A stretch of 64,000 nucleotides of DNA from Thiomicrorhabdus lithotrophica (GTDB taxonomy: Bacteria; Pseudomonadota; Gammaproteobacteria; Thiomicrospirales; Thiomicrospiraceae). Positions within the stretch are counted from its first letter, which is position 1, and the number at the start of each line of letters is the position of its first letter. Position numbers and translations under genes: made by a program. The notes beneath the pieces are model-generated. The model was not told where the DNA came from. It ran no database searches and saw only the letters and a list, made by a program, of their open reading frames with translations. This document shows positions 26,281 to 45,300 of this stretch, piece by piece. The DNA lies in contig NZ_CP102381.1 in the NCBI RefSeq assembly GCF_029201445.1, forward strand, positions 1,550,001-1,614,000, read 5' to 3'.

Positions 26281-26341
26281 CTCTAACAATACACTCAACC
26301 CGACCGCGCTAACGCGCGGCCGGTTAGCTTAAACATTATGC
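26281..26341 (+). repeat. attC site 1 (R' box degenerate)
   Basis: R-double-prime CTCTAAC at 26281-26287; a stem of imperfect complements (AACCCGACCGCGC and GCGCGGCCGGTT) around a short loop; then ATTATGC at 26335-26341 where GTTATGC is expected. The G to A change at the crossover base would cripple recombination. The 44 bases 26284-26327 are identical to attC 3 (27538-27581). Confidence 0.8.
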
Positions 26342-26356
26342 GATGAAACAAAGCCT

Positions 26357-26920
26357 ATGAAATACTCAAGCGAACATCATAATTGGGATATGACTGTTAT
26401 GGCCTCTTCAAGGCTGGTCACATTAGGTGAGAATATTGAGAAAAATGATTATTCTTTTTCTGCATTTACTGGATCGATGCTGCTTGCTGTCGCTGGATTA
26501 GAAAGCTTTTTAAACTCAATAGCCCACACTCTTTCTATTAATGACTCTGAGTTTCCTTATATTGAATTTGATAGAAAAGGAATCGTGGAAAAGCTAGATT
26601 TTCTATTAGATAAATTTAGCATCAGTCTTAACAAGGGCGAAAGGCCTTATCAAACCATTAAGAAGGCTGTGACTTGGAGAAACAGCGTAGTACATTCAAA
26701 ACCTTTTTATGTGGAAGAAACAATGATTGAGCCAAGACAAGATATAAGAAAATTGCCAAAGCAATATAAGTCAAACGATAACAAATATCCGCCTTATGAA
26801 AATCTTGTTTCTAAAGAAAATGCAGATCGATTCAATCGCGATATCATTAAAATAATAGAATCAATAAAGAGCATAAGCGGTTTAAATCCGCGTGCACAAT
26901 GTTCATACACAATCACATAA
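26357..26920 (+). CDS. Integron cassette 2: HEPN-like protein
   Basis: A 187-residue, mostly helical protein. Near residue 115 it has the motif TWRNSVVHSKPF, i.e. RN-x3-H, the Rx4-6H signature of HEPN-domain RNases and their relatives (many toxins, abortive-infection and CRISPR-linked effectors). The preceding helices (LLAVAGLESFLNSIAHTL) fit the HEPN helical bundle. The stop codon TAA lies inside the attC 2 site, typical of gene cassettes. The start has no clear Shine-Dalgarno. RNase activity is inference. The same Rx4H pattern in the next cassette strengthens the call. Confidence 0.65.
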   Translation: MKYSSEHHNWDMTVMASSRLVTLGENIEKNDYSFSAFTGSMLLAVAGLESFLNSIAHTLSINDSEFPYIEFDRKGIVEKLDFLLDKFSISLNKGERPYQTIKKAVTWRNSVVHSKPFYVEETMIEPRQDIRKLPKQYKSNDNKYPPYENLVSKENADRFNRDIIKIIESIKSISGLNPRAQCSYTIT

Positions 26921-26974
26921 CAATGCGCCCCAGCCTACGCCGCAAAGTGGCGCGGCTGAGCTTAAACGTTATGT
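26915..26974 (+). repeat. attC site 2
   Basis: 60 bp bounded by ACATAAC (26915-26921) and GTTATGT (26968-26974), exact reverse complements. Inner imperfect arms include CAGCCTACGCCGC and GCGCGGCTGAG. It overlaps the 3' end of cassette 2. The best-preserved site of the array. Confidence 0.85.
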
Positions 26975-26991
26975 GTAAAACTTAGGTAAAG

Positions 26992-27531
26992 ATGAAAACA
27001 AAACTAAAAGACTTTATTCAGCATCTTTATCATGAAATTGATGATGAAGATAAGGCAGAAGAATATTTAGACAACGCCCTCCCTTCTATTGGCTTAATCG
27101 TGATGTACTTTAACTCTCTAGAAAGCTCACTTGACTCAGTACTATGCGAAAATTTTACTGACAGAACCGACTCAACAGGCCTAATTGTTCTAAATAAAAT
27201 GAACTTTGCTTCCAAAGTAGATTTATTCAAGAGATTTTGTGATGACTTCCAAGTTGCAGTAAAAAAGCTTGATGGCTATGAACTTCTTATCAACGATTTA
27301 CAAGAATCCAGTAGGCTCAGAAATATGGTGGTACATGCCAACTGGGAAAGCACTGATGAGGAAGGCTATACATATATCAGGCTTAAAATATCCAAAAATG
27401 GAATGAAGCAAGAGTATGTGCAGTTTACACAAGAGTCATTACAAAAAATAATTGAACTAATTCTAAAGACGCGTTTTAGCTTGGAAGAATTCTGGGAATA
27501 TCGAAATGATGTCTTACATAACAGAGTATAG
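26992..27531 (+). CDS. Integron cassette 3: HEPN-like protein
   Basis: A 179-residue helical protein containing RLRNMVVHANW around residues 106-116, again the RN-x3-H HEPN signature, preceded by IVMYFNSLESSLDSVL and a KVDLFKRFCDDF helix. It shares this layout with cassette 2 but little other sequence. The motif suggests an RNase or nucleotidyltransferase-partner fold, as in MNT-HEPN or Abi systems. No nucleotidyltransferase partner is in the array. TAGGT upstream serves as a weak ribosome binding site. An acidic N-terminal stretch (EIDDEDKAEEYLD) is notable. Confidence 0.65.
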   Translation: MKTKLKDFIQHLYHEIDDEDKAEEYLDNALPSIGLIVMYFNSLESSLDSVLCENFTDRTDSTGLIVLNKMNFASKVDLFKRFCDDFQVAVKKLDGYELLINDLQESSRLRNMVVHANWESTDEEGYTYIRLKISKNGMKQEYVQFTQESLQKIIELILKTRFSLEEFWEYRNDVLHNRV

Positions 27532-27534
27532 AAC

Positions 27535-27595
27535 ACATAACAATACACTCAACCCGACCGCGCTAACGCGCGGCCGGTTAGTTTGATCGTTAGAA
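27535..27595 (+). repeat. attC site 3
   Basis: 61 bp bounded by ACATAAC (27535-27541) and GTTAGAA (27589-27595). Its core is 44 bases identical to attC 1. The box ACATAAC complements the GTTATGT that opens cassette 3, as expected. Just after it lies an imperfect inverted repeat GAAGCG...CGCTTC (27593-27616), possibly the start of a lost fourth cassette. Confidence 0.82.
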
Positions 27596-27645: not shown

Positions 27646-28043
27646 AATAATTGGGGTCAGAGTAAAATTAAATAAACAACCTATTGATTTTATTAACAAA
27701 TAAAAAATAACTTTACTCTGACCCCAATTAAAATCTTAAAAATGAGTTACCAGGCCTTTATACCCTCTTGCGCGATGTAGTAACTTTCATTTTGGTTTTG
27801 GTGGCTTTATCATCCAAACAATCCACCCTACTACTAATAGCAAAAATAATTGGGGTCAGAGTAAAATTAAATAAGCAACTTATTGATTTTATTAACAAAT
27901 AAAAAATAACTTTACTCTGACCCCAATTAAAATCTTAAAAATGAGTTACCAGGCCTTTATACCCTCTTGCGCGATGTAGTGACTTTCATTTTGGTTTTGG
28001 TGGCTTTATCATCCAAATAATCCACCCTACTACTAATAGTAAG
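27646..28043. repeat. 199-bp tandem duplication with inverted repeats
   Basis: Two near-identical 199-base units, 27646-27844 and 27845-28043. Each contains a 16-bp inverted repeat TTGGGGTCAGAGTAAA / TTTACTCTGACCCCAA (27651-27666 with 27712-27727; 27850-27865 with 27911-27926), with an AT-rich interior. Each also holds a 37-bp element starting TTACCAGGCCT (27747-27783 and 27946-27982). No ORF. The TCAGAGTAAA hairpin resembles dispersed REP/MITE-like repeats of gammaproteobacteria, some linked to REP-associated transposases. This 551-base gap has no gene apart from the attC at its left edge. Confidence 0.85.
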
Positions 28044-32802: not shown

Positions 32803-32921
32803 AATATATCCTAGTATCTTAAAATTTAAATTTCCTGCTTAGCCTACTGACTAAACTTGATGGAGCTATTCTAAAATTCAAATTTAAAAATTAGATAACA
32901 GAAAAATGACATTTTTATGAC

Positions 32922-32961
32922 TTACCACACCCCGCAAGGAATATGCAGGCCTGGTAACTTA
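32922..32961 (-). repeat. 40-bp interspersed element, inverted copy
   Basis: Reverse-complement copy (one mismatch) of the element at 34017-34056. Ends are TTACCA/TGGTAA inverted, with CCAGGCCTG at one end. With the downstream copy it flanks the MYG1 gene in opposite orientation. The remainder of the 359-base gap 32803-33161 shows only AT-rich sequence and the MYG1 promoter region. Confidence 0.85.
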
Positions 32962-33161
32962 TCTGCATACAAACATAACAATTCTTATTCACCTAAAAAA
33001 ACCATGGTAAGACAATTTTTTAATGACAACATCAATGCTATCTCTGCCAACAACAAGGTAAATAAGCTACTATAGTGCACATATACAAGACTAACCATTC
33101 AAGCTTGAGTAAAGTTGAAAACTTAAACTCTTAAACAAGCTTATCAAACAAGGAATCTTAC

Positions 33162-34001
33162 ATGCTCGTTACACATTCAGGTCGCTTTCACGCTGACGAA
33201 GTTTTTGCCACCTCTATGGTTCTTATGGTGGAAGACCGTCAAATCACTCGTAGTCGTGACGAGGAAGTCATTAAACAAGCGGATATCGTATTAGATGTAG
33301 GAGCTGAATATGACCCAGAAACTCTGCGTTTTGATCATCATCAAAATAGCTTCACTGAAGAACGCGAAGACGGCACACCTTACGCCACAGCAGGCTTAAT
33401 TTGGCGCCACTATGCTAAACGCATTTTTACCGCTAAAGGGCTAAAAGGCGATTATGAAATCAACTTTGCGACTCAATGGGTAGATGACAAACTGATTAAA
33501 GACATTGATGCTGTAGACAATGGTATGTATCAAGAAGATCCTCGCCCTTCTGTCTCTCTATTAATTGCGATGATGAACGAATCTTCTGACGAGAAAGAAA
33601 AACAAGAGATTGCCTTTAACAAAGCGCTTGAACTGACTAACGATATTTTAGAAAACTTTATAAAAGCCGCCATGAAAGAAGCCGAAGTGGTGGTTGAACT
33701 GGAAGCCTATGCAAAAACCGTTGAAGAAGGGATTTTAGTTTTAGATAAAAACCTGCCTTTTAAAGACTTCATCCGCTCTCACCCTGAAATTACCCGAGTG
33801 GTTTATCCAAGAAGTGAAGAGCAATATGGCGTTTACTGCAACAGCCAAGAAAACCATCTACCAAAAAGATTTCGTGGTTTGAGAGACACTGAGCTAAACG
33901 AAGTAACAGGATTAACCGATACAATTTTCTGTCATAAGTCTGGCTTTATGGCAGTGACATTAAGCTTAGAAAGCGCCCTTTTCATGGCCAAAAGCCATTA
34001 A
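33162..34001 (+). CDS. MYG1-family (UPF0160) metal-dependent hydrolase
   Basis: A 279-residue DHH-type protein: N-terminal THSGRFHADEVFATSMV and FDHHQNSF motifs supply metal-binding His/Asp, and the C-terminal CHKSGFMAVT is family-specific. Eukaryotic MYG1 is a 3'-5' exonuclease; the bacterial role is not established. A strong AAGGA precedes the ATG. Its last 19 codons plus stop are duplicated 4 kb downstream, at the far side of a two-gene islet. Confidence 0.9.
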   Translation: MLVTHSGRFHADEVFATSMVLMVEDRQITRSRDEEVIKQADIVLDVGAEYDPETLRFDHHQNSFTEEREDGTPYATAGLIWRHYAKRIFTAKGLKGDYEINFATQWVDDKLIKDIDAVDNGMYQEDPRPSVSLLIAMMNESSDEKEKQEIAFNKALELTNDILENFIKAAMKEAEVVVELEAYAKTVEEGILVLDKNLPFKDFIRSHPEITRVVYPRSEEQYGVYCNSQENHLPKRFRGLRDTELNEVTGLTDTIFCHKSGFMAVTLSLESALFMAKSH

Positions 34002-34056
34002 AGGCTGTAAATTTCATAAGTTACCAGGCCTGCATATTCCTTGTGGGGTGTGGTAA
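33942..34056 (+). repeat. 115-bp direct repeat, left copy
   Basis: Covers the 3' end of MYG1 (33942-34001) plus 55 bases downstream, including the 40-bp palindromic element (34017-34056). It matches 37913-38027 with two mismatches. The two copies bound the TupA/GGDEF-EAL islet. The gap from here to the TupA gene (about 300 bases) holds no convincing gene. Confidence 0.93.
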
Positions 34057-34361
34057 TTAACCAACAATCCAACAGAATCGAGAAGACTACTTTTTACCTA
34101 TGTTTGATGATTAGAATCGTTAACATAAAGGTGTTTAATCCCAAAAAAAAAGATGGCAGTGCTCCCATATTAAAAAGGAAGCAACTTATCTGCTTGTTTA
34201 CGATAGCGACTCTATTGCCATAACTATTTTAATAATTGAGTTGAATCAGTTTTAAAAAAAACCCGAAATCACTACGTAATCTTGACCTTGCGGTTTGACT
34301 TTTAAAGCTCACTAAACTATATTCGACCTATATCATATATAGTCTAAAGAGCGAGAGTTAA

Positions 34362-35153
34362 ATGATCCGCGCATTACTTATAAGCTTTTTACTTCTACCC
34401 ACTATCGTCCTCGCTGACCAACATACTATCCGGCTTGCTATTGCAACTTCGATTGAAAACTCAGGCTTACTAAAGCATCTATTAAACTCTTTTAATAGTG
34501 ATAAAAAATACAATATAGATTTACAAGTTGTTGGCAGTGGTAAAGCTTTACGCTTAGGAAGATCCGGCGATGTTGACCTAATATGGGTGCATTCCCCTCA
34601 AGCTGAACAAAAGTTTATCAATGATGGTCATTCCCTAGAATATCAAACCGTGATGAAGAATAATTTTGTTATTATCGGCCCCAAAAATGACCCTGCCAAA
34701 ATCACTCAAGCAAAAAATGTCATTGAAGCTTTTAAACGAATTGCAAAACAAGAATCAACCTTTTTTTCTAGGGGAGATGATTCGGGTACACACAAAAAAG
34801 AAATTGCACTATGGTCCAAGACCAACATAAACCCTATCGGGGAGGACTGGTATATTGAAACGGGTTCAGGAATGGCACAAACAATCCAGGATGCCCAATC
34901 AGAAAACGCATACATGCTATGTGACCAAGCTACTTTTTTAGTTAAAGAAAACAACAAGTTAACAACACTATTAAAGGACAGTGTTAACCTATTTAACCCT
35001 TATAGCATCATTCTGATAAAAAATAAAAGCACACAAAACCAAAAAGCATCGAGATTACTATATGAATGGTTAACATCTGAAAAAGGCAGAGCTGAAATTG
35101 AGAACTTTAAATATAATGGGCATCAATTGTTTAGCCCTATAACAATAAATTAA
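34362..35153 (+). CDS. TupA-like tungstate/oxyanion-binding periplasmic protein
   Basis: A 263-residue protein with a signal peptide (ends VLADQ). The body matches the tungstate-binding TupA family: IRLAIATSIENSGLLKHLL, VGSGKALRLGRSGDVDLIWVHSP, NNFVIIGPKNDPAKI and SRGDDSGTHKKE, the last being oxyanion-binding loops. No TupB permease or TupC ATPase lies nearby. Instead it is followed after 11 bases by a membrane GGDEF/EAL protein, so it may act as a ligand-sensing subunit rather than in transport. It lies in an islet bounded by direct repeats, suggesting acquisition. Confidence 0.85.
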   Translation: MIRALLISFLLLPTIVLADQHTIRLAIATSIENSGLLKHLLNSFNSDKKYNIDLQVVGSGKALRLGRSGDVDLIWVHSPQAEQKFINDGHSLEYQTVMKNNFVIIGPKNDPAKITQAKNVIEAFKRIAKQESTFFSRGDDSGTHKKEIALWSKTNINPIGEDWYIETGSGMAQTIQDAQSENAYMLCDQATFLVKENNKLTTLLKDSVNLFNPYSIILIKNKSTQNQKASRLLYEWLTSEKGRAEIENFKYNGHQLFSPITIN

Positions 35154-35164
35154 CGCTTGAAATC

Positions 35165-37882
35165 ATGCCTAAACTTTTGACATCCATTCGCTTAAAACTA
35201 TTACTTTTCTTAAGCGTTCTTTTATTTACACTAGGTTTATTTGTATTTAACTATTTCTCTGTTAATGAGTCTGCATGGTTGCATGAAAAAAAGGTCTTAC
35301 AGCAGACTAACCTAGCCATTGAACTTTCTTATAAAACTAAATCTTCTTTTGCTTCCCAGCTTCATGCATGGAAAAATATTCTATTACGTGGTCACATTGC
35401 CAAAACCTATCACTCTCATTTGAAAGACTTCTACCAATTAGAAAGAGAAACTCGATCATCTATTAAAGCATTAAAAGTCTTCTCTAAAGAGTTTCCTCAA
35501 ATTACTCCACCCCTTAACAAACTTCAGGCAAGTCATAAAGAACTAGGACAACAATTTCGTAATGCTCTCCGTACATTTAATGAAACTGATATCGATCCAG
35601 GACCTGCTACAGACAAATTTTTACAAGGGTATGAAGAAATTCCTATAACACTATTAAATGATTTAGTGACCATTTTACAAATCGAAAGAAACGAATTTAT
35701 AAAAGAAATTGAGTTAAATAAAGCTGAGCAACAAGAACGCCTCTTAATAAGCAGTACAATATTATTATTATTATTATCTGCAGCTTACTATTGGTTATTA
35801 GATCGCCGTATTGCAAAACCTGCAGAGCAGGCTACGCAACTTTCAAGCATCATTAATCACGCCGAAAAAGTCGCTAAATTTGGAACCTGGGACTGGGATT
35901 CATCCACTCAAAAACACCATTGGTCTGAAGGTTTTTTACAGATATTAAATCTAGAAAAGCGAGCAGAACAATCTTTTGCTATATTTCTAGATAAACTACT
36001 CCCAAGCGAACGTAAGCAAGTTGAGGTTATTTTAAGTCAAGCTCGTCACAATATGAATCCATTCAGGGTTTCTGCTCGCTTAAACATTTTTCACGATGGT
36101 AAGCCACGCTATATAGAATTGAGAGGGCAAGTCACTAAACTCAAAGCTTCATCTAACCATGTACGTATTACCAGTATCATTTATGACATTACTGATAGAG
36201 TTGAAATACAAGATCAGCTTGAACTTTACTTGCGCCTCTTTGAACACACTGGAGAACCAGTACTTATTTCAAATAGTAAAAATGAAATTATAAAAGTAAA
36301 CCGAGCATTTGAAGAGGCCCTTGGTTATAAACAGTCTGATTTAATCGGTAAAGATCCTAAGGTTCTGGCTTCTGGCAAAACCGACCCACAAACTTATGAA
36401 AGTTTATGGCGACTTTTAAAGAACAACATTAGCTGGCATGGTGAACTATGGAATCGACATGAAAATGGCAAAATCATACCTTTTTGGGCCACGATTTCCC
36501 CAATCAGAAATAATCAAAACGAAATTGAAAACTACATTGCCAACTATTCTGATATTAGCCAAATCAAAGATGTAGAGGCTCGTATCCATAAATTAGCGCA
36601 CCAGGATTCTTTAACAGGGTTATTAAACCGTTTGAGCTTAGAAGACAGGCTCAAGCAGTCAATTTCAGAAGCAAAACGTAATCAGCACAATCTAGCTGTA
36701 CTATTTCTAGACATGGATCGTTTTAAAATTATTAATGACACCATTGGACATCACGCTGGTGATGAAATATTAATACAAATTGCCCATCGCCTAAAAAGCA
36801 TTCTTAGAGAAAGTGACATTATCTCTCGAATAGGTGGAGATGAATTCGTTATAGCCCTTCCAAATTATGGTGAAATTTATTCATTAAAGAATCTAATCGA
36901 TAAAATCATTAACGAACTAAGAGTTCCTTATATGGTTGACGGTAATAAACTTGTTTCTACTCCTAGCTTAGGTATTAGCCTTTACCCTGAAGACGGAACT
37001 GATAGTGAAAGCCTAATGAAAAATGCTGATACAGCGATGTATTCAGTTAAAGAGCATGGACGTAATAGTTATCAATTTTTCAAACAAGAAATGAATGATG
37101 TTATTCAAATGAAACTCATTCTTGAACAGGAGCTCTTAAATGCGATTGAACAGAATGAATTTTGTCTGTATTACCAACCTCAAATTTGTGGTAAAGAGCA
37201 CAAAATCATTGGATTAGAAGCCTTAATTCGCTGGCAACATCCCGAAAAAGGTTTAATTTCTCCTGATTTTTTTATTCCTATTGCAGAGGAGTCAGGGTTG
37301 ATCATCCCAATAAGTCAATGGGTCCTTCATGAAGCAATCAAGACAATTGCCAACTTTAAAGAATTTGGTTTTTCAAATATTACCATGGCTATAAATATTT
37401 CACAGCAACAGTTCAAATCCGAAAGCTTCCATGACGAAATTGCACGCACACTCAAGACATTTAATATACCAGGGCGTTTTCTTGAACTGGAGATCACTGA
37501 AAGTCAAGCAATGGAAAATGCTGAACAAACCATCGAGATACTGCATGGATTAAAAAAATTAAATGTCTCTATTGCTTTAGATGATTTTGGAACAGGTTAT
37601 TCATCATTAGCTTATTTAAAACGCTTACCTATTGATATTGTGAAAGTAGATCGTTCCTTTATACAAGACATAGAACATGACTCAAATGATGCTGAAATAA
37701 GCTCTGCAGCGATATCATTGTCACACAACTTAGGATTAAAGGTCATAGCAGAAGGTGTTGAGACTGAAACTCAACTCGCTTTTTTGAAGAGTCACAATTG
37801 TGATGTTATGCAAGGATACTTTTTTAGCCGTCCACTCCCAGAAAATGAACTACTGGCATGGATGAAATCCTTCGCTAGTTAA
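35165..37882 (+). CDS. Membrane PAS-PAS-GGDEF-EAL c-di-GMP enzyme
   Basis: 905 residues: TM1 (about 11-31), periplasmic helical sensor (about 32-187), TM2 (about 190-210), PAS 1 (225-345), PAS 2 (350-465), GGDEF domain with intact GGDEF (557-561) and an RxxD inhibitory site (RESD) five residues before the preceding strand, then EAL domain with EALIRW (about 684-689) and DDFGTGYSSLAYL (about 805). Both activities could be intact, so it may make and break c-di-GMP. The periplasmic domain is a good candidate to read the TupA-like protein encoded immediately upstream. The pair would couple an oxyanion or similar signal to lifestyle control. PilZ protein 2173-2994 is a possible receptor. Confidence 0.93.
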   Translation: MPKLLTSIRLKLLLFLSVLLFTLGLFVFNYFSVNESAWLHEKKVLQQTNLAIELSYKTKSSFASQLHAWKNILLRGHIAKTYHSHLKDFYQLERETRSSIKALKVFSKEFPQITPPLNKLQASHKELGQQFRNALRTFNETDIDPGPATDKFLQGYEEIPITLLNDLVTILQIERNEFIKEIELNKAEQQERLLISSTILLLLLSAAYYWLLDRRIAKPAEQATQLSSIINHAEKVAKFGTWDWDSSTQKHHWSEGFLQILNLEKRAEQSFAIFLDKLLPSERKQVEVILSQARHNMNPFRVSARLNIFHDGKPRYIELRGQVTKLKASSNHVRITSIIYDITDRVEIQDQLELYLRLFEHTGEPVLISNSKNEIIKVNRAFEEALGYKQSDLIGKDPKVLASGKTDPQTYESLWRLLKNNISWHGELWNRHENGKIIPFWATISPIRNNQNEIENYIANYSDISQIKDVEARIHKLAHQDSLTGLLNRLSLEDRLKQSISEAKRNQHNLAVLFLDMDRFKIINDTIGHHAGDEILIQIAHRLKSILRESDIISRIGGDEFVIALPNYGEIYSLKNLIDKIINELRVPYMVDGNKLVSTPSLGISLYPEDGTDSESLMKNADTAMYSVKEHGRNSYQFFKQEMNDVIQMKLILEQELLNAIEQNEFCLYYQPQICGKEHKIIGLEALIRWQHPEKGLISPDFFIPIAEESGLIIPISQWVLHEAIKTIANFKEFGFSNITMAINISQQQFKSESFHDEIARTLKTFNIPGRFLELEITESQAMENAEQTIEILHGLKKLNVSIALDDFGTGYSSLAYLKRLPIDIVKVDRSFIQDIEHDSNDAEISSAAISLSHNLGLKVIAEGVETETQLAFLKSHNCDVMQGYFFSRPLPENELLAWMKSFAS

Positions 37883-37912
37883 TCATTTTAAAATCATTAA
37901 AAATACAAATAA

Positions 37913-38027
37913 GGCTTTATGGCAGTGACATTAAGCTTAGAAAGCGCCCTTTTCATGGCCAAAAGCCATTAAAGGCTGTAAATTTCATAAGTTACCAGGC
38001 CTGCATATTCCTTGTGTCGTGTGGTAA
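37913..38027 (+). repeat. 115-bp direct repeat, right copy
   Basis: Second copy of 33942-34056 (two mismatches), containing a pseudo 3' end of MYG1 with the same stop codon but no gene in front. It marks the right boundary of the islet 34057-37912. Confidence 0.93.
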
Positions 38028-38086
38028 CTTTGTTTAAATGATAAGAGTAAAATAACCCGTTATAAACTTTATGTAAGTTGATACTT

Positions 38087-38458
38087 TTACCCTAAATGCT
38101 CCCTAATTTTACCTAAAAGATGTGCCGGACTAAAAGGCTTGACTAAATAATCCGTCGCGCCAGCGTATATACCTTCTTCTTTGTCCACGGTCTGTGTTTT
38201 AGCTGAAAGCATAAGTATCGTAGCCTCTTTGGTAACTGGAATTCTACGCAATTGTTTACAAACATCTATTCCATTCAACTCTCCAGGCATCATTACATCT
38301 AGAATGATTACATCAGGTATCTTTTTTTGAGCGATAGCTAGCGCCTCTACACCATTCTTTGCCTCTAGCACCTCAAAATCTTCTGCGGCAAGTGTCATTT
38401 TCACTAGCTTTCTTATCATTTCCTGATCATCAACAATCAGTATTTTTTTGATACTCAT
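38087..38458 (-). CDS. Single-domain response regulator
   Basis: A 123-residue CheY-like receiver: acidic pocket VDDQE near residue 10, phospho-acceptor Asp in VIILDVMMPG, Thr/Ser in ILMLSAKT and Lys in YLVKPFSP. No output domain. It lies 15 bases after the histidine kinase gene on the same strand, so it is its likely phosphorylation partner. AGAGGCG upstream is the ribosome binding site. Output must come by protein interaction, for example with the HTH-receiver protein or a downstream enzyme. Confidence 0.93.
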   Translation of the reverse strand: MSIKKILIVDDQEMIRKLVKMTLAAEDFEVLEAKNGVEALAIAQKKIPDVIILDVMMPGELNGIDVCKQLRRIPVTKEATILMLSAKTQTVDKEEGIYAGATDYLVKPFSPAHLLGKIREHLG

Positions 38459-38473
38459 AATAACGCCTCTACT

Positions 38474-40249
38474 CTATCTATAGAACTTAACAACAACTTC
38501 TGTTCCTCTACCTAATTCACTATTGACTTCAATAGTACCAGAATGCAATTCAATAATATCTTTAACGATTGACATCCCTAAGCCTGTTCCTGGAATTTCA
38601 CCACTCATATCGGCACGCCAAAACTTATCAAAAACATGTGAAACTTGCTCTTCTGTCATTCCAATACCTGAATCAACAACTCTAATCTCAACACCAGTAT
38701 TATTCTCAACTTCAGTTTCAAAATGTTCCACAAAAACATTCACACCGCCAATAGATGAATACTTATAAGCGTTAGAAACTAGGTTCAGTAATACTTGGTA
38801 AATACGATTAAAATCAACATTTACAGTCCCTAAGTCATTCGAATATTTAACCGAGATTGTTTCTCTACCCTCAGGAATTGCAAACGCCCTAATGACTTTA
38901 TCAACAATATCCACCACTAAAACTTGTTGGAAATCGAAATTTTGTGCCCCTTCGGTTTCAATTTTAGACACATCTAATAAGTCTCCAACTAAAGCAACAA
39001 CCCGCTGTGATTGAGTGTTAATAATCGTTGCTAATTCAACACGCATATCATCAGATACAGTTGGCGCTATGAGTAACTCACTAAAGCCCTGAACACTACT
39101 TAATGGTGTTCTTAACTCATGAGCGGCATGTGCTAAGAATTCAGATTTAAGTCGCTCGACCTCTTCTGTTTTGGTTAAATCCGTAAAGAAGAAGATACTA
39201 TGAATTTGAGTTTCGGTATCGTTGATAATCTTTTGACTAACATTAAGTAAACGTGTATTTGGTTTGGCAAAACGTATTTTCCAGTTATCATTTGAAACAT
39301 CTTCAATACCCTTAAACGTATCAATTAACCTCAACCATTTAACACTTTCATAATCATCAAAGTCGATCTCTTTCCTAATCATTTCAACAAAGGATTCATA
39401 GGTAGCGCCTTCAACAGATTTGTAACAATTAACCAAGTTCATGAAAGCAGGGTTAACCGTTAGTATGGTTCCATCTAATGAAAAAACAATCATTCCATCT
39501 TTAGTGTTATTAAAGATTTCTTCCAATTTCATTGAATTGGATTTCAATTTAATTTGTGTCTTAATTAAGGAAGCCGACATCTGATCAAATGCTTGTGAAA
39601 CCATCCCGATTTCATCATTAGCGTGATCGCCAATTTTTACTAGGTTTCCAGTATTCTTTACCTTAATTGCCACTTCTTTTAATTGCCCTAACCTGCGTGT
39701 TAGAACCCAACCTAAGAAAAATGAAAATAACGCTGACAAAAAAACCTCAACGATGGCAATCACTTTAATTCTGTGAGAAACATCATCTATAAAGGTTGAG
39801 AGCTTCTCAACCGAAAGCCCAAGCTCAACTTGCCCTATTTCAATATCATCAACCATTACAGGCTTAACCGTATCAAACACCCCGTCACGGTTTGCTTGTT
39901 CCAATGTATAATCTTGCTCAACTGACGTTGTTAGATACTTTTTATCACCCGCGAATGCGAATGTTTTACCTTCATCATTCTTGATATGCACATACACCAA
40001 ACCATCACTCTGTACCAGGCTGTCAATAAAGTGTTCTGTATTCCCTACATCGTAAGTCAAAAGTCCATTTCTGACCCATAATGCAATCAGTGAAGAGGTT
40101 TCATTTGAACGCGACTTGATCTGATTTTCATTGGTTTCATTCAATGAGTTAATACTCGTAAAATATATGATCGCTAACAGGATAGATTCAATAAACGCCA
40201 CACCCAAAATAGTTTTGATTTTAAAAGACATGTCTTTGAATTTGATCAT
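38474..40249 (-). CDS. Membrane sensor histidine kinase (HAMP-PAS-HisKA-HATPase)
   Basis: 591 residues: TM1 (12-30), periplasmic sensor with double-Cache-like character (about 31-165), TM2 (166-185), HAMP (187-238), PAS (245-365), HisKA with phospho-acceptor His in HAAHELRTPLSSVQGF (about 374-390), then HATPase with NLVSNAYKYS, DSGIGMT and GTGLGMSIV. It follows a PhnD-like binding-protein gene and precedes a CheY-like regulator. Such SBP-HK-RR triplets, like those with TorT or LuxP, use the SBP as the ligand detector for the kinase. AGGA precedes the ATG. Confidence 0.93.
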   Translation of the reverse strand: MIKFKDMSFKIKTILGVAFIESILLAIIYFTSINSLNETNENQIKSRSNETSSLIALWVRNGLLTYDVGNTEHFIDSLVQSDGLVYVHIKNDEGKTFAFAGDKKYLTTSVEQDYTLEQANRDGVFDTVKPVMVDDIEIGQVELGLSVEKLSTFIDDVSHRIKVIAIVEVFLSALFSFFLGWVLTRRLGQLKEVAIKVKNTGNLVKIGDHANDEIGMVSQAFDQMSASLIKTQIKLKSNSMKLEEIFNNTKDGMIVFSLDGTILTVNPAFMNLVNCYKSVEGATYESFVEMIRKEIDFDDYESVKWLRLIDTFKGIEDVSNDNWKIRFAKPNTRLLNVSQKIINDTETQIHSIFFFTDLTKTEEVERLKSEFLAHAAHELRTPLSSVQGFSELLIAPTVSDDMRVELATIINTQSQRVVALVGDLLDVSKIETEGAQNFDFQQVLVVDIVDKVIRAFAIPEGRETISVKYSNDLGTVNVDFNRIYQVLLNLVSNAYKYSSIGGVNVFVEHFETEVENNTGVEIRVVDSGIGMTEEQVSHVFDKFWRADMSGEIPGTGLGMSIVKDIIELHSGTIEVNSELGRGTEVVVKFYR

Positions 40250-40289
40250 GATAATCTATCCTGATTTATGTAAATCTATGAAGAAATCT

Positions 40290-41204
40290 TTAAGGTTGTG
40301 AAGATACTGATTTTAAATTATTGAGAATTTGGATATCTAACGCACGCACGTCATTCCAGTCGGAATTTTGTGCCGTCACAATACTTTTAAAATTAATACC
40401 CTTTAAAAGTATTTTCCCTTCTGCCGTGTTGGATAAATTCATCAATGCTTTTTGAACCTTCATTGAGACCTCTTTAGGTATTTTTGACGAAGATGCAAAT
40501 GCGTGAGGCGTATAGCCTTCTGTTGTCCAAATAATAGTCAACGGTTGTGTTATATCCTTACTCGCATTATTAAAGGTTCTTTCTATACCCCCACCTGCTT
40601 CAAAGTTTTGGTAATTCACATTTTTATACACCGACTCATGAGAAGAAACATATTTCGATTTAAACTTAATTCCACGTTTATTCAATATCGCTTGGGGAAC
40701 AACCGTTGCAGCAAATGCCGCTGGTGCTGGAAAAGCAATGGTTTTACCTTCTAAATCCTCTAGCGATTTAACCGTTGAATCCTTACGTGCAATAATAATA
40801 CCTTTTAGTTTCTTTTGTCCTTGCTTAGCAAAAGCACTATAACCAGAAACATCATGAAAAACGGTGTAGTGGTATGGGTTCATATAAGCAAAATCATAAG
40901 CCTGTTTAGACAACTGATGTTCAAACTTAGGAATTGTTTGGTTAGTTTTAAACACAAATTTATAACCCGTTTCTTTTTCTAAATATTTGAAAATTGGAAT
41001 CCACTTCTTCGCTAAAACCATGGCTGATTGCTGGGGAACCACACCAAAACTGTACGTTTTTTTGGCATCCATGTCATTATCAGTATCTGCATAAACAATA
41101 GCAGTGAACAGTAAAATATTAAGAAAGAATAAAATAATTAAAAAGTTTGAAATTGAATTACCGCTTAGAGCATTACCCAAGACTAAAACTATTATTTTTT
41201 TCAT
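40290..41204 (-). CDS. PhnD-like periplasmic substrate-binding protein
   Basis: A ~304-residue phosphonate/phosphite-type SBP: a long N-terminal membrane/signal segment, then YSFGVVPQQSAMVLAKKWIPI, the FAYMNPYHYTVF ligand-binding region, and DLEGKTIAFPAPAAFAATVVP. No permease or ATPase genes accompany it. Placed between a PAS protein and the histidine kinase, it is more likely a sensor subunit. The start at 41204 has AAGGG 8 bases upstream and is better than the ATG at 41225. Ligand unknown; PhnD-like SBPs also bind sulfur- or arsenic-oxyanions in other systems. Confidence 0.85.
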   Translation of the reverse strand: MKKIIVLVLGNALSGNSISNFLIILFFLNILLFTAIVYADTDNDMDAKKTYSFGVVPQQSAMVLAKKWIPIFKYLEKETGYKFVFKTNQTIPKFEHQLSKQAYDFAYMNPYHYTVFHDVSGYSAFAKQGQKKLKGIIIARKDSTVKSLEDLEGKTIAFPAPAAFAATVVPQAILNKRGIKFKSKYVSSHESVYKNVNYQNFEAGGGIERTFNNASKDITQPLTIIWTTEGYTPHAFASSSKIPKEVSMKVQKALMNLSNTAEGKILLKGINFKSIVTAQNSDWNDVRALDIQILNNLKSVSSQP

Positions 41205-41242
41205 TTTACTACCCTTAAAAATCATTACGTTGCCTGCAAGCT

Positions 41243-41668
41243 TTAGTTGAACTCATAATAAACATCTAAATCGTTGGAGGCCATTTCCCTATGATCCTTC
41301 TGTTCAACTTGAGAGAGCGGTTCAAAGTTCATTAATGCATACATCTCCTTGGCATTACGAACAGATAACTTATCCAATTGGAAAAATCTTACTTCAAAAG
41401 TATGCCCTAAAGATGGGGTGTCTAGCACTTGAAAGTTTACGTTTAACCAACAAACCTTCTGATTTAAGCTTATATGTAAAATATAGCAGTTACTTAATCC
41501 ATTGTGGCAGTGCTCTTTTAACTCATCAATCACATTGCTTGGAACAGTATTGGGAACCATATCCAAAAAATTAGTGCCTAATAAATCCTCTTCAAGTAAA
41601 TCAAATTTCTTTAAAAAGTTTTTACTGACCTCAATTAATTCCAAGTTTTGATTAAGCTTTAAATTCAT
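41243..41668 (-). CDS. Stand-alone PAS-like protein, paralogue 1
   Basis: A 141-residue protein that is essentially one PAS fold: LNQNLELIEVSKNFLKKFDL (the beta-A/B entry), LGTNFLDMVPNTVPSNVIDELKEHC helices and WLNVNFQVLDTP strand, plus a short acidic tail. It resembles the protein at 44680-45120 (shared VSKNF, FL-x-MV, VP, and a Trp in the beta-sheet), so the two are paralogues bracketing the cluster. First gene of the PAS-PhnD-HK-RR operon. Cofactor binding is not evident. It may bind a partner of the kinase or report redox state. Confidence 0.72.
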   Translation of the reverse strand: MNLKLNQNLELIEVSKNFLKKFDLLEEDLLGTNFLDMVPNTVPSNVIDELKEHCHNGLSNCYILHISLNQKVCWLNVNFQVLDTPSLGHTFEVRFFQLDKLSVRNAKEMYALMNFEPLSQVEQKDHREMASNDLDVYYEFN

Positions 41669-41770
41669 ATTACATATTGGCCTTTTGAATTTATCAAACC
41701 ATGCATTTTGTAGGATTATTTAATTACAGGTAAATAATACCTCAAACCAACATCTGCTTCAATCACTTTA

Positions 41771-41788
41771 TTCGTTTTGTTCGTTTTA
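41771..41788 (+). promoter_or_regulatory. Tandem TTCGTTTTR repeats, site A
   Basis: Two head-to-tail 9-bp units, TTCGTTTTG and TTCGTTTTA, between the divergent PAS and rhodanese genes. They sit 3 bases upstream of a TATAAT at 41792-41797, so they overlap the expected -35 region of the rhodanese promoter. Confidence 0.7.
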
Positions 41789-41826
41789 ATGTATAATGGC
41801 ACTTCATTCATTAATACACGATTAAC

Positions 41827-42246
41827 ATGCTTATGAAACACATTACTTTTTTTATTCTCTTTTTTGTATTTACAAACCTTTATGCCAATTCAGAAGAATC
41901 CATTATTCACTCAAACATTCATGACTATTTAGATTTTGCAAGCTATGCGGATGGGGACATAACCCCTGAACAATTAAATGCAGAAAAGAAAGCCTTTATT
42001 ATCGACACAAGAAAAAACAAAGATTTTATTAAAGGAAATATACCAAACTCGGTCAATATTGAATGGCGTAACACATTGAATAATATTAACAAAATACCAA
42101 AAGATGAATTAATTGTTGTTTATTGTGATACAGGGATACTTTCATCAAAATCGCATTTAATCCTCAAGCTTTTGGGCTGGAATAACGTACATGTTTTATT
42201 TGGTGGATATCAAAATTGGTTAAAGTTTGAGGAGACTTTAAAATAA
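41827..42246 (+). CDS. Exported rhodanese-domain protein
   Basis: A 139-residue protein: signal peptide (ends near LYANS), then a rhodanese domain with FIIDTRKNKDFIKGNIPNSVNI and the active-site loop VYCDTGILSSKSHLIL, with Cys as the likely sulfur acceptor, and a C-terminal GGYQNW. It could act on thiosulfate, persulfides or selenium/arsenic species in the periplasm, or serve as a sulfur-carrier sensor. Transcribed divergently from the sensor operon and preceded by site A. Two starts, 41827 and 41833, are possible. Confidence 0.85.
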   Translation: MLMKHITFFILFFVFTNLYANSEESIIHSNIHDYLDFASYADGDITPEQLNAEKKAFIIDTRKNKDFIKGNIPNSVNIEWRNTLNNINKIPKDELIVVYCDTGILSSKSHLILKLLGWNNVHVLFGGYQNWLKFEETLK

Positions 42247-42344
42247 TAAAAAAATAACCAAGTTCGATTCCAATCAAAACTATTTTTGTTTCTTTTTTAA
42301 TAGCTTTGTTTTTTACCAATCTGCACAAGCAAAAAAATCTTTAA

Positions 42345-42362
42345 TTCGTTTTATTCGTATAA
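42345..42362 (+). promoter_or_regulatory. Tandem TTCGTTTTR repeats, site B
   Basis: TTCGTTTTA followed by TTCGTATAA, 48 bases before the orphan gene at 42410; the same 9-bp period as sites A, C and D. Confidence 0.65.
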
Positions 42363-42409
42363 ACTTATTTTTTCTTAGAATCCAAATAAAGACGACCATA
42401 CTTAACACT

Positions 42410-42898
42410 ATGAAAAACCCACTATTAAGACAACGTATTGACATTAATACCCTAAACAATGATGTGATTAACGCCTGCGTCAGTGATTTTCTTATTCAAA
42501 GCCAGGATGTTTACATTCAAAACAAACCAATCAATATTGAACGTTTTTTAAATCCTGCTATTTTTCAATATTATGCTGCTTACAGTGCTTTTCTAAATCT
42601 AGGTAAAAACACCCTAGCGCCACCTGAAATGATTGAAGTAAATAAGGAGGTTTATATGGTGGAGGCGAGTTCTAGCTATCTTTATAAAGAATCGAGCATG
42701 CACGACACCATTCTTACAATTGAGTTCAACTGCATCAAAATTGAAGATTCCATTCTTCACCATTTAGACAGTGAACAAATTTTTAAGCGGAGAGCGAATC
42801 AAATTCAGTTGAAAGCCGCCTATGAACAGGTTCAACTTTTACTCGATGAAAAATCAAAAAAAGTACATAGCGATATTGATTATTTAAATTACTTATAA
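42410..42898 (+). CDS. Orphan cytoplasmic protein, paralogue A
   Basis: A 162-residue soluble protein with no recognised domain. Its C-terminal third (IQLKAAYEQVQLLLDEKSKK) is a predicted helix that resembles the end of the following gene's product (MQLAAAFEELNRLSSQSE), so the two look like diverged tandem paralogues. The middle has a beta-rich segment (EVYMVEASSSYLY). The first gene of a three-gene run (42410-43672) under repeat site B. A partner of the PAS/receiver proteins is possible. Confidence 0.6.
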   Translation: MKNPLLRQRIDINTLNNDVINACVSDFLIQSQDVYIQNKPINIERFLNPAIFQYYAAYSAFLNLGKNTLAPPEMIEVNKEVYMVEASSSYLYKESSMHDTILTIEFNCIKIEDSILHHLDSEQIFKRRANQIQLKAAYEQVQLLLDEKSKKVHSDIDYLNYL

Positions 42899-42908
42899 AA
42901 GGAAAATT

Positions 42909-43391
42909 ATGCCTTCTGATAATCAAATTCTTACTTTAAAACTTAACTCTGAAAATAAAATAATACATGCTCAACCCGAAAAGCATTACTTTCTTGTTAA
43001 TAAAGAGTCGCTAAAGCTTTGCAATAGTGAACTACATAAAACCATCAAAACAGAATTGTATGAGTACTTCTTAAATCACTCATACACAATACAAAGCAAT
43101 AAACAATTCGGTTCTTATCCTGCAGAGATAATTTTCATGGATGGAGTTAAATACCTTGTGCAACTTCATTATGAAAACAAGGTAATTAATCTTGATAATT
43201 TAAAAACCATTTTATATTTCAACTTTATTAATATTGAAAGCTATTCCAAAGGAAGAAATTTGGTGGGCAGCTATCTTGAAGATAAGGCTATAGAAATGCA
43301 ATTAGCCGCCGCTTTTGAAGAATTAAACCGATTATCTTCACAAAGTGAATACTGGAACACAGAAGACACCAATCTTTTTAAAAAACTATAA
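42909..43391 (+). CDS. Orphan cytoplasmic protein, paralogue B
   Basis: A 160-residue protein starting 10 bases after paralogue A, with an AAGGA ribosome binding site. Its first segment (QILTLKLNSENKIIHAQPEKHYFLVN) is PAS-like in pattern: a strand, Asn, Ile turn, then a helix (LCNSELHKTIKTELYEYF). Together with the middle strands (VKYLVQLHYENKV) it may be another diverged PAS protein. The C-terminal helix MQLAAAFEELNRLS matches paralogue A. Otherwise unrecognised. Confidence 0.6.
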   Translation: MPSDNQILTLKLNSENKIIHAQPEKHYFLVNKESLKLCNSELHKTIKTELYEYFLNHSYTIQSNKQFGSYPAEIIFMDGVKYLVQLHYENKVINLDNLKTILYFNFINIESYSKGRNLVGSYLEDKAIEMQLAAAFEELNRLSSQSEYWNTEDTNLFKKL

Positions 43392-43405
43392 GATGGAACC
43401 TAACC

Positions 43406-43672
43406 ATGACAAGTTTTCTAACTGAAGCAGAACTAAGCATATTATTGATGGATAATACTAAGTTCCAAAAAACTACCGACTACCAACTAGAAGAACTGTT
43501 CATGATTGGCCAGACACCGATATATTCATTAATAAACCAGGTTAATTTTACCTTTACAAACAATGTAACAATCCCACTATGCCAAGACTTATTAACCTAT
43601 TTGGATGTCCAGGTATCGGCCACTGGAACCCTTTACCCTAATGAATTGAAAAAAATGAAAAGCACTCTGTAA
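43406..43672 (+). CDS. Short orphan protein, 88 aa
   Basis: An 88-residue protein 14 bases after paralogue B, with GGAA upstream. It is acidic and helical at its N-terminus (FLTEAELSILLMDNTKFQ) and has no recognised domain. Close spacing argues for one operon with the two preceding genes. Confidence 0.5.
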   Translation: MTSFLTEAELSILLMDNTKFQKTTDYQLEELFMIGQTPIYSLINQVNFTFTNNVTIPLCQDLLTYLDVQVSATGTLYPNELKKMKSTL

Positions 43673-43993
43673 TAGATAATCTTAATTCTAAGCCAGAATA
43701 GGATGCCGGTAAAACTCCAAGAACTATAAAAATAAGCATATCCTCACTATCAAGATTAAATACTTACGGCTTACGCTCACAAAAGCGCTTTATTCTTTAT
43801 TGATGAGATGATCAAATCTCTGTAAAAACATTATTTTTACTGAAGTTCATAAGGTTTATAAACATTAGTATCTTATTGAGTGGCTATGCACAATAGTAAT
43901 TTCAGGATAGGTGTAGAGAAAGGTTGACTAGAGTCATTATATTAAAACAGCAATACCTTTAACCTTTGAGAATGGTTATTGACTAAAAAATAG
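43673..43993. other. Gene-free gap between convergent operons
   Basis: 321 bases of AT-rich sequence without a convincing ORF, hairpin terminator or repeat. A short inverted motif near 43787 (AAAGCGCTTT) is the only local symmetry. Confidence 0.6.
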
Positions 43994-44578
43994 TTATACT
44001 TTTTTTAACGCATATTCATACTGCATAAACTGTTTTACAACATCTAAATTTAGTGGTTTATTCATTAAAACAACATCATAGGGTAATCTCTCCCTATCAA
44101 TCTCGTTTAATCCGTCTGCCGTAATGACAATAATTGTACTGGATTTCGTATTTTCATATTCTCTCAGAACTTTTATTGCTTCATAACCATCCATTAATGG
44201 CATATTCAGATCAACAAAAATCATATCAAATACGCCTTGACCGGCTTTAATCAGACCTTCATAGCCATTAACCGCTGAAACAATATCTATAGCCGGGAGT
44301 GAAGGATCTTTAACAAGGCTGGTAAAAATGCTCTGGATAACAGCATCATCATCGACAACCATAACCTTTAAAGAACGCGTTTCTGCTTGAGCTTTAATCA
44401 CACCCTGCTCTTGGTGTTTTTGCTCTATCGAACTTCGCTTTATTCTTCGGTGTCCGCCAGGCGTTTTCCAAGTCTCTAATTCACCACTATCAGCCATTCT
44501 TTTGATAATGGTTTTAGAAACTTGCAAAATTTCACAGGCTTCGGACGTCGTTATAAATTCATCATCTTTATCAAGCAA
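43994..44578 (-). CDS. Excisionase/MerR-like HTH fused to a receiver domain
   Basis: 194 residues. An N-terminal winged helix of the excisionase type ([20 protein letters not shown] and [16 protein letters not shown], residues 7-52) is followed by a linker and a receiver domain ([14 protein letters not shown], phospho-Asp in [13 protein letters not shown], Lys in MNKPLNL). Response regulators usually have the receiver first; this reversed order is unusual. No ATG fits; TTG at 44578 after GAGAG is the likely start. It is a strong candidate for the protein that binds the TTCGTTTTR repeats, one copy of which lies just upstream. Confidence 0.85.
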
Positions 44579-44614
44579 CAGTCATTCTCTCTATATTAAA
44601 CATTAAAACACGCT

Positions 44615-44632
44615 TAAAACGAATCAAACGAA
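44615..44632 (-). promoter_or_regulatory. Tandem TTCGTTTTR repeats, site C
   Basis: On the minus strand: TTCGTTTGA followed directly by TTCGTTTTA, 37 bases upstream of the HTH-receiver gene. Confidence 0.68.
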
Positions 44633-44679
44633 CGTGAATTATAGTTCAATTCTGGAAAAATTAACAAACCTATCAACTT

Positions 44680-45120
44680 CTATTTAACTCTACAATCCCA
44701 ACGCTCCATTGAAACCGCTTGATTAGAGTGATTATTTTGAACAGGCCAACCTTGTTTCATAGACATTTCTCCTTGAGAAATCTTACTATATACTGAAGCT
44801 GTCGTATCAATATCACTCGCTGTTATATGTTGTAATACGGCCTGATAGCCGACGTTATTACCACCTTCAAATCTAGGGCTAATACTGACATCGAACCAGT
44901 CTGGATTAGCTAATACATTGACCTTAAGAGTAACGTTATAAACCAAACCTTTTTTGAGACTATCATATAAGTCTTCTGCAAGCTGATCTGGCACTTCACA
45001 ATCAACCATACTTAAGAAAAAACAACTTTTAAGAGACCTAGCCTGATCTCTCATTAAAACCTTAAAGTTTTTAGATACAGCATCAATTGTTAAATCTTTA
45101 TTGAGATTTATAAGCAGCAT
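44680..45120 (-). CDS. Stand-alone PAS-like protein, paralogue 2
   Basis: A 146-residue protein with a PAS core: LNKDLTIDAVSKNFKVLM, CFFLSMVDCEVPDQLAEDL, a beta-sheet WFDVSISPRFEG and VGYQAVLQHIT, plus a Ser/Gln-rich C-terminal tail. It shares the VSKNF entry and Trp-containing strand with the 41243-41668 protein. AAAAGGG precedes the ATG. Three TTCGTTTTR-type units lie immediately upstream, between promoter region and start. Confidence 0.72.
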   Translation of the reverse strand: MLLINLNKDLTIDAVSKNFKVLMRDQARSLKSCFFLSMVDCEVPDQLAEDLYDSLKKGLVYNVTLKVNVLANPDWFDVSISPRFEGGNNVGYQAVLQHITASDIDTTASVYSKISQGEMSMKQGWPVQNNHSNQAVSMERWDCRVK

Positions 45121-45138
45121 AATAAAGCCCTTTTACAA

Positions 45139-45165
45139 AAAAACGAACACAAAGAACAAAACGAA
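45139..45165 (-). promoter_or_regulatory. Triple TTCGTTTTR repeats, site D
   Basis: On the minus strand: TTCGTTTTG, TTCTTTGTG and TTCGTTTTT head to tail with a 9-bp period, ending 18 bases before the ATG of PAS paralogue 2. This position downstream of a plausible promoter suggests repression. Confidence 0.68.
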
Positions 45166-45242
45166 CTATATCATATTAAATACAAATTCACAAAAAGGTT
45201 AATTCAAAACAAATTAAACTTACTAAAGCAGAAATTTTGTGT

Positions 45243-45294
45243 ACATACTTTAGTATGTTCACACTTTTGTACACATCAGTAATTGATATTACTG
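45243..45294. other. Two short inverted repeats
   Basis: ACATACT-TT-AGTATGT (45243-45258) and CAGTAAT-TGAT-ATTACTG (45277-45294) lie just downstream of the SDR gene and upstream of the PAS gene. The second could be a transcript-end hairpin for the SDR gene but lacks a T tract. Confidence 0.4.
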
Positions 45295-45300
45295 TGTTTA

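Follow-up and report, generated by a model that had tools for sequence, protein, structure and literature searches.

TupA-like and GGDEF/EAL genes between direct repeats of the MYG1 3′ end in Thiomicrorhabdus lithotrophica: a candidate recent insertion

How does a two-gene operon come to lie between two nearly identical copies of the end of a housekeeping gene when no integrase accompanies it? The question is raised by a 64,000-nucleotide stretch of the Thiomicrorhabdus lithotrophica genome (contig NZ_CP102381.1, positions 1,550,001 to 1,614,000; hereafter the window), in which the last bases of MYG1 recur beyond a TupA-like binding-protein gene and a GGDEF/EAL gene, together termed the islet. 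The answer favoured here, on balance and with modest confidence, is a recent insertion in this lineage, anchored by homology in the 3′ end of MYG1 and made without a dedicated recombinase. The argument turns on the following features, given in window positions.

33162–34001, plus strand: MYG1 (UPF0160), intact, its 3′ end anchoring the repeat (Pfam PF03690 MYG1_exonuc, 1.8e-63)
33942–34056, plus strand: direct repeat copy 1, the last 60 bp of MYG1 plus 55 bp, terminating in a hairpin element
34362–35153, plus strand: TupA-like periplasmic binding protein (Pfam PBP_like_2, 4.5e-26; signal peptide by eye)
35165–37882, plus strand: membrane-anchored PAS-GGDEF-EAL sensor (Pfam; GGDEF and EAL full length; membrane segments by eye)
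37913–38027, plus strand: direct repeat copy 2, MYG1 fragment plus hairpin element, 113/115 identical to copy 1
38087–38458, minus strand: response-regulator gene beyond the islet (Pfam), the C-terminal part of which adjoins MYG1 in the related genome G009

The repeat copies are each 115 bp long and start 3,971 bp apart. Both mismatches are neighbours (repeat positions 105–106, GG versus TC), and the 60 bp drawn from MYG1, comprising its last 19 codons and the stop, show no differences between the copies; to the left, two more bases agree (GG at 33940–33941 and 37911–37912). The self-match (E = 8.9e-54) lies far outside chance. An earlier reading of the sequence alone had described this repeat, and its lengths, spacing, and mismatches all proved exact on recomputation; the list of open reading frames (ORFs) agrees with it that only two genes lie between the copies. 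The duplication is young: a single pair of neighbouring differences separates its 115-bp copies, against around 20% of bases for MYG1 between species.

Relatives were compared across 32 genomes of the genus, one per species, the window's own genome (G000) included. RNase D, phosphofructokinase, a 188-residue protein, and MYG1 are syntenic in G009, G014, G015, G021, and G002, and the MYG1 orthologues of the first four are 87%–89% identical. The spacing between MYG1 and the response-regulator gene in relatives had been proposed as a check on the insertion, and in G009 (WV30_bin5) the two genes stand with no islet between them: MYG1 is followed by a spacer of ~105 bp and then by the response-regulator gene that lies past the islet in G000, again convergent with MYG1, which makes an islet-free junction. 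The G009 response-regulator fragment matches that of G000 at 78% of nucleotides over 95 bp and at 56% over 62 amino acids, and other response regulators of the genus are 34%–44% identical to the G000 protein among the matches listed. At the contig edge, the G009 gene (L030 8980–9213) is cut by the end of an IS3-like transposase, identified as an insertion sequence (IS) by eye. The contrary outcome, with all relatives carrying the same two genes between equally divergent repeats, was not found.

No evident orthologue of either islet gene occurs in the 31 other genomes of the genus, which, like the repeat, the gene content, and the G009 junction, is a direct observation. TupA matches are confined to three of the 32 genomes: the window's own, G007 (26%–29%), and G016 (53% over 78 amino acids). 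For the GGDEF/EAL sensor, genus matches begin only at around residue 165 and reach at most 32% identity. Across the class, a TupA-like protein was found in 97 of 369 genomes, with 49% identity at best once the window itself is excluded. In two (L069 and L074) of 29 such class loci (L069–L097), a GGDEF/EAL gene lies directly downstream and the sensor is alike from residue 7; two is a lower bound, as the loci extend ~1.5 kb past each match. Both paired loci belong to genomes of other families, G079 and G316, and because the same two genes occur together in both, the pair is an existing unit that travels and was acquired, probably as a whole. A GGDEF domain is likewise encoded close to a distant TupA-like gene, that of G007 (L053, 27%).

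The downstream side of MYG1 was scanned with Pfam in relatives (10 proteins from nine loci, three of them without a Pfam match). The neighbours found there are an IS110 transposase; an ORF of unknown type followed by a cadherin-domain ORF; a helix-turn-helix–cupin protein; a GGDEF-EAL protein; a Bfd-like protein, in two loci (L101 and L103); and a PAS-GGDEF protein. A duplicated MYG1 end is present in none of 24 relative MYG1 loci, of which four have less than 4 kb downstream. These comprise 20 loci from a 24-locus set of relatives plus four others, with L116 (which ends inside MYG1) and L119–L121 (distant archaeal and Lachnospiraceae proteins) dropped; of the short self-matches that the loci contain, one in L107 is a 35-nt dispersed match and the others are inverted palindromes.

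As to what the islet encodes, the binding protein scores 186.2 bits against the NCBIfam TupA model, under the curated cut-off of 400 bits, and matches the tungstate-binding protein of PDB entry 3lr1 (1.4e-51). No transporter genes lie beside it in the islet, by ORF list and Pfam; judged by score and adjoining transporter genes, the protein is classed as TupA-like, on its PDB matches, rather than as TupA. Its stop codon and the GGDEF/EAL start are separated by 11 bp. The binding protein lacks a transporter and has a membrane GGDEF/EAL protein as its partner; its most likely role is therefore to signal an oxyanion-like ligand, via that partner, to the turnover of cyclic di-GMP (c-di-GMP); a tungstate-like oxyanion would be our guess. 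The net activity of the sensor leans towards c-di-GMP breakdown because the EAL domain is full length and the best NCBIfam matches are phosphodiesterases, albeit with every equivalog match below its cut-off. In Vibrio, NspS reports to MbaA, and the present pair is like that system in that the gene for a periplasmic binding protein adjoins one for a membrane GGDEF-EAL protein; NspS, unlike the TupA-like protein, belongs to another binding-protein family.

How, then, might this two-gene c-di-GMP sensing operon have been added recently between MYG1 and the convergent response-regulator gene? We infer the direction, donor, and route as follows. The incoming DNA would have come from a close strain and carried the MYG1 3′ end followed by the operon. 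Homology would have directed the joint in the MYG1 end, whereas the opposite end of the fragment would have joined illegitimately. Either the fragment was circularised and entered by one crossover, or a linear fragment was taken in by homology-facilitated illegitimate recombination; both routes would require a donor in which MYG1 precedes the operon, and either would keep MYG1 complete, followed by the operon and a residual 115-bp fragment of the MYG1 end. We favour this account since the operon, the scar, and the G009 junction all follow from a single event. The change may also be reversible, in that RecA could remove a 3,971-bp circle via the repeats and leave MYG1 whole.

Comparable outcomes have been described. 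In Escherichia coli, where re-circularised DNA had entered by single crossover, PCR showed a duplication in 56 of 60 unusual integrants, with a length of 109–950 bp in the 14 sequenced (PMC3240628). The likeness lies in an insert placed between short direct duplications of a chromosomal segment (115 bp here) with no dedicated recombinase; the difference is that the E. coli case, as presented there, used an engineered plasmid, whereas the present one is a single natural locus with an inferred history. Variable segments in another survey likewise consist of a short gene block between direct repeats with the islet-free state elsewhere, although those repeats are mostly shorter than 30 bp (66%–94%) and the comparison here, with repeats of 115 bp, is between species (PMC2884548). 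In Vibrio type VI secretion system clusters, a 3′ gene remnant is described as pushed downstream of an added module, for which homology-facilitated illegitimate recombination was proposed; that case concerns effector/immunity arrays, unlike the sensing operon and intact MYG1 here (PMC5361080). The islet is an ordinary kind of genome variation.

Several points weigh against the insertion so described. The islet-free state is known from a different species only, and G009 is one incomplete genome (86%) whose contig ends ~380 bp past MYG1. Its junction aligns as one piece with copy 2 and the right flank of G000 (score 163, versus 48 for copy 1 and its flank), which would favour copy 2 as the resident side; that preference is weak because the G009 spacer, compared alone with that of G000, shows no detectable homology (115 of 300 shuffles are as good). 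The partial TupA-like match of G016, a possible orthologue, stands at a contig end, away from MYG1. No donor with the MYG1–TupA order was found, and a scan of named genomes with TupA gave no confirmed source for the operon.

Base composition sets the region apart. The guanine–cytosine (GC) fraction, 0.387 on either side, falls to 0.351 within the islet and to 0.335 across 38028–45300. The palindrome CAGGCCTG, which occurs 30 times in the window, is found within 34057–45300 only inside repeat copy 2; for that interval, 6.2 occurrences are expected from the rest of the window (probability of one or fewer, 0.015, for an interval picked after seeing the data). The entire stretch of 34–45 kb has an accessory look; the islet occupies its left end, and the following lies beyond the islet.

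38474–45120, no strand: low-GC accessory stretch without CAGGCCTG (histidine kinase, PhnD-like protein, rhodanese, response regulator, and unassigned genes)

At 38474–41225, the histidine kinase adjoins the PhnD-like binding protein, forming a second binding-protein-plus-sensor module beside the TupA–GGDEF/EAL pair; close relatives of this kinase are lacking in the genus (best match 9.8e-34).

The repeat itself is composite, which the earlier reading had not noted: its last ~45 bp are a copy of a dispersed hairpin element, and 41 bp of it are also present inverted at 32922–32962 (98%), just upstream of MYG1. A covariance model locates three copies of one local subfamily around MYG1.

32917–32963, minus strand: third copy, just upstream of MYG1 and ~1 kb upstream of repeat copy 1 (64.5 bits)
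34015–34061, plus strand: element at the end of repeat copy 1 (62.9 bits)
37986–38032, plus strand: element at the end of repeat copy 2 (56 bits)

The consensus of 12 copies is TAAGTTACCAGGCCTTTATACCCCCTTGCGGGGTGTGGTAACTTAT. A BLAST search with a 119-bp query finds 13 places in the genome, and the covariance model built from the 12 copies gives 55 matches there, with matches in 10 of the 32 genus genomes. That count is rough: the model copies match by construction, scoring covered only the top 150 candidates of each genome, and every plain 27-nt palindrome is counted twice, once per strand. The GCATATTCCTTG version, with up to three mismatches, occurs only three times in the genome, namely in both repeat copies and inverted at 32922–32962. 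Where G000 has its element upstream of MYG1, G015 has a plain palindrome, CTTACCAGGCCTGGTAGG. A reading of the third copy as resembling a miniature inverted-repeat transposable element was set aside, as the flanks in a five-genome alignment upstream of MYG1 are too divergent for insertion ends or a target duplication. A simple terminator scan found none at either repeat copy (four found in all versus 3.9 expected), and the hairpin folds better than shuffles at copy 2 (z −2.9) but not at copy 1 (z −0.3).

The element also recurs inside other local duplications. At 27646–28042, a 198-bp tandem duplication is 97% identical, each unit carrying a hairpin element as well as an inverted pair that encloses TTGGGGTCAGAGTAAA, and G015 has two element clusters in duplications.

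G015:C2:86500–97500 (L132) and G015:C1:1933500–1951500 (L134): element clusters inside local duplications, namely a 222-bp direct repeat and a ~300-bp tandem repeat

These multi-element loci were chosen because elements cluster there, and all 10 single-element G000 loci (L138–L147) are free of an element-bearing duplication; the recurrence is a hint and no more.

The element bears directly on the main rival to the insertion, templated local duplication; on that view the repeat is no more than a short copied segment, and the operon came by a different route. With the operon already downstream, a replication fork would have switched template to the MYG1 end, copied 115 bp as far as the hairpin element, and resumed downstream. 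We regard this as possible, if on the unlikely side. The copy does end at a plausible stall point, the other element-bearing duplications offer parallels, and the inverted third copy of the same subfamily lies close by; the scheme nevertheless calls for another event to bring in the operon, does not on its own explain why MYG1 and the response regulator are adjacent in G009, and sits poorly with the single-element loci, which indicate that elements do not usually cause such duplications. A stronger form, in which the ~45-bp element is itself the active agent, promoting local template switching and duplication and so copying gene ends beside new neighbours, seems to us doubtful. Islets would then end up between element-bearing repeats, and the two sites in the window and the two in G015 would be snapshots of that process. 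About as improbable is that the operon is an old resident, that G009 and other relatives have lost it, and that gene conversion has kept the repeats alike. Repeat-mediated loss is known, 10%–18% of variable segments in three species being repeat-flanked in one survey (PMC2884548), but many independent losses would be needed; such a loss in G009 would leave a hairpin element, and the MYG1 junction there has none. The lower GC of the islet and the lack of the palindrome inside it also speak against long residence.

The sequence-only reading had proposed a circular molecule inserting into the gene's 3′ end and regenerating it, or else a segmental duplication. Insertion at the MYG1 3′ end is supported by the G009 junction and the lack of orthologues; a site-specific, end-regenerating mechanism is not supported, in view of the relatives' MYG1 loci and the hairpin element. 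That mechanism—a small mobile element integrating at the MYG1 3′ end, its integrase since lost or supplied from elsewhere—we consider very improbable, even though the position at a gene's 3′ end, the intact gene, and the direct repeats of the target's end are what an att-type site would show, and G000 has an integron integrase ~0.45 Mb away (C1:1131388–1132332; 474.8 bits, over the cut-off). The absence of an integrase holds up, as no tyrosine or serine recombinase was found among the islet genes and the scanned ORFs of 34–46 kb. A duplicated MYG1 end is likewise missing from all the relative loci, 20 of which have at least 4 kb downstream, and this rules out a recurrent attachment site at the MYG1 end. 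Moreover, the greater part of the repeat outside MYG1 consists of the dispersed hairpin element rather than an att core. By eye, this does not look attC-like, and the element's GTTACCA arm does not fit the GTTRRRY core of attC sites; no attC-like repeat turned up in the islet repeat scan, which was not a search aimed at attC.

Elsewhere in the window, three attC-like sites, two of which fold into strong hairpins, surround two ORFs without Pfam matches at 26284–27592. This appears to be a small integrase-less cassette array, ~0.44 Mb from the integron integrase of the genome.

The palindrome CCAGGCCTGG is highly iterated, occurring 531 times in the 2.5-Mb genome (reversed control, 0) and 18 times in the window, 287-fold above a third-order Markov expectation (36 on both strands versus 0.13); by eye, many sites are in coding sequence. 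It occurs 234–856 times in nine of the 32 genus genomes, G000 included, and none of the remaining 23 has more than 106 copies. A stretch of G023 is enriched in CCGGCCGG instead, which resembles the alternate highly iterated palindromes of cyanobacteria (PMC4390886). In literature searches on iterated palindromes and methyltransferases, Thiomicrorhabdus palindromes, and Hydrogenovibrio uptake sequences, and among the papers listed for CAGGCCTG, CCAGGCCTGG was not found described, nor was any paper found on natural transformation in Thiomicrorhabdus. The palindrome may mark a methyltransferase or an uptake signal.

Should hairpin elements be shown to provoke duplications, they would offer a testable route for islet gain in one group of sulfur-oxidising bacteria. 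As it stands, the locus offers a clean, small example of accessory sensing genes added beside a housekeeping gene without a mobile-element machine; its scar, the 115-bp leftover of a gene end, is still readable, and a related species shows the junction without the islet.

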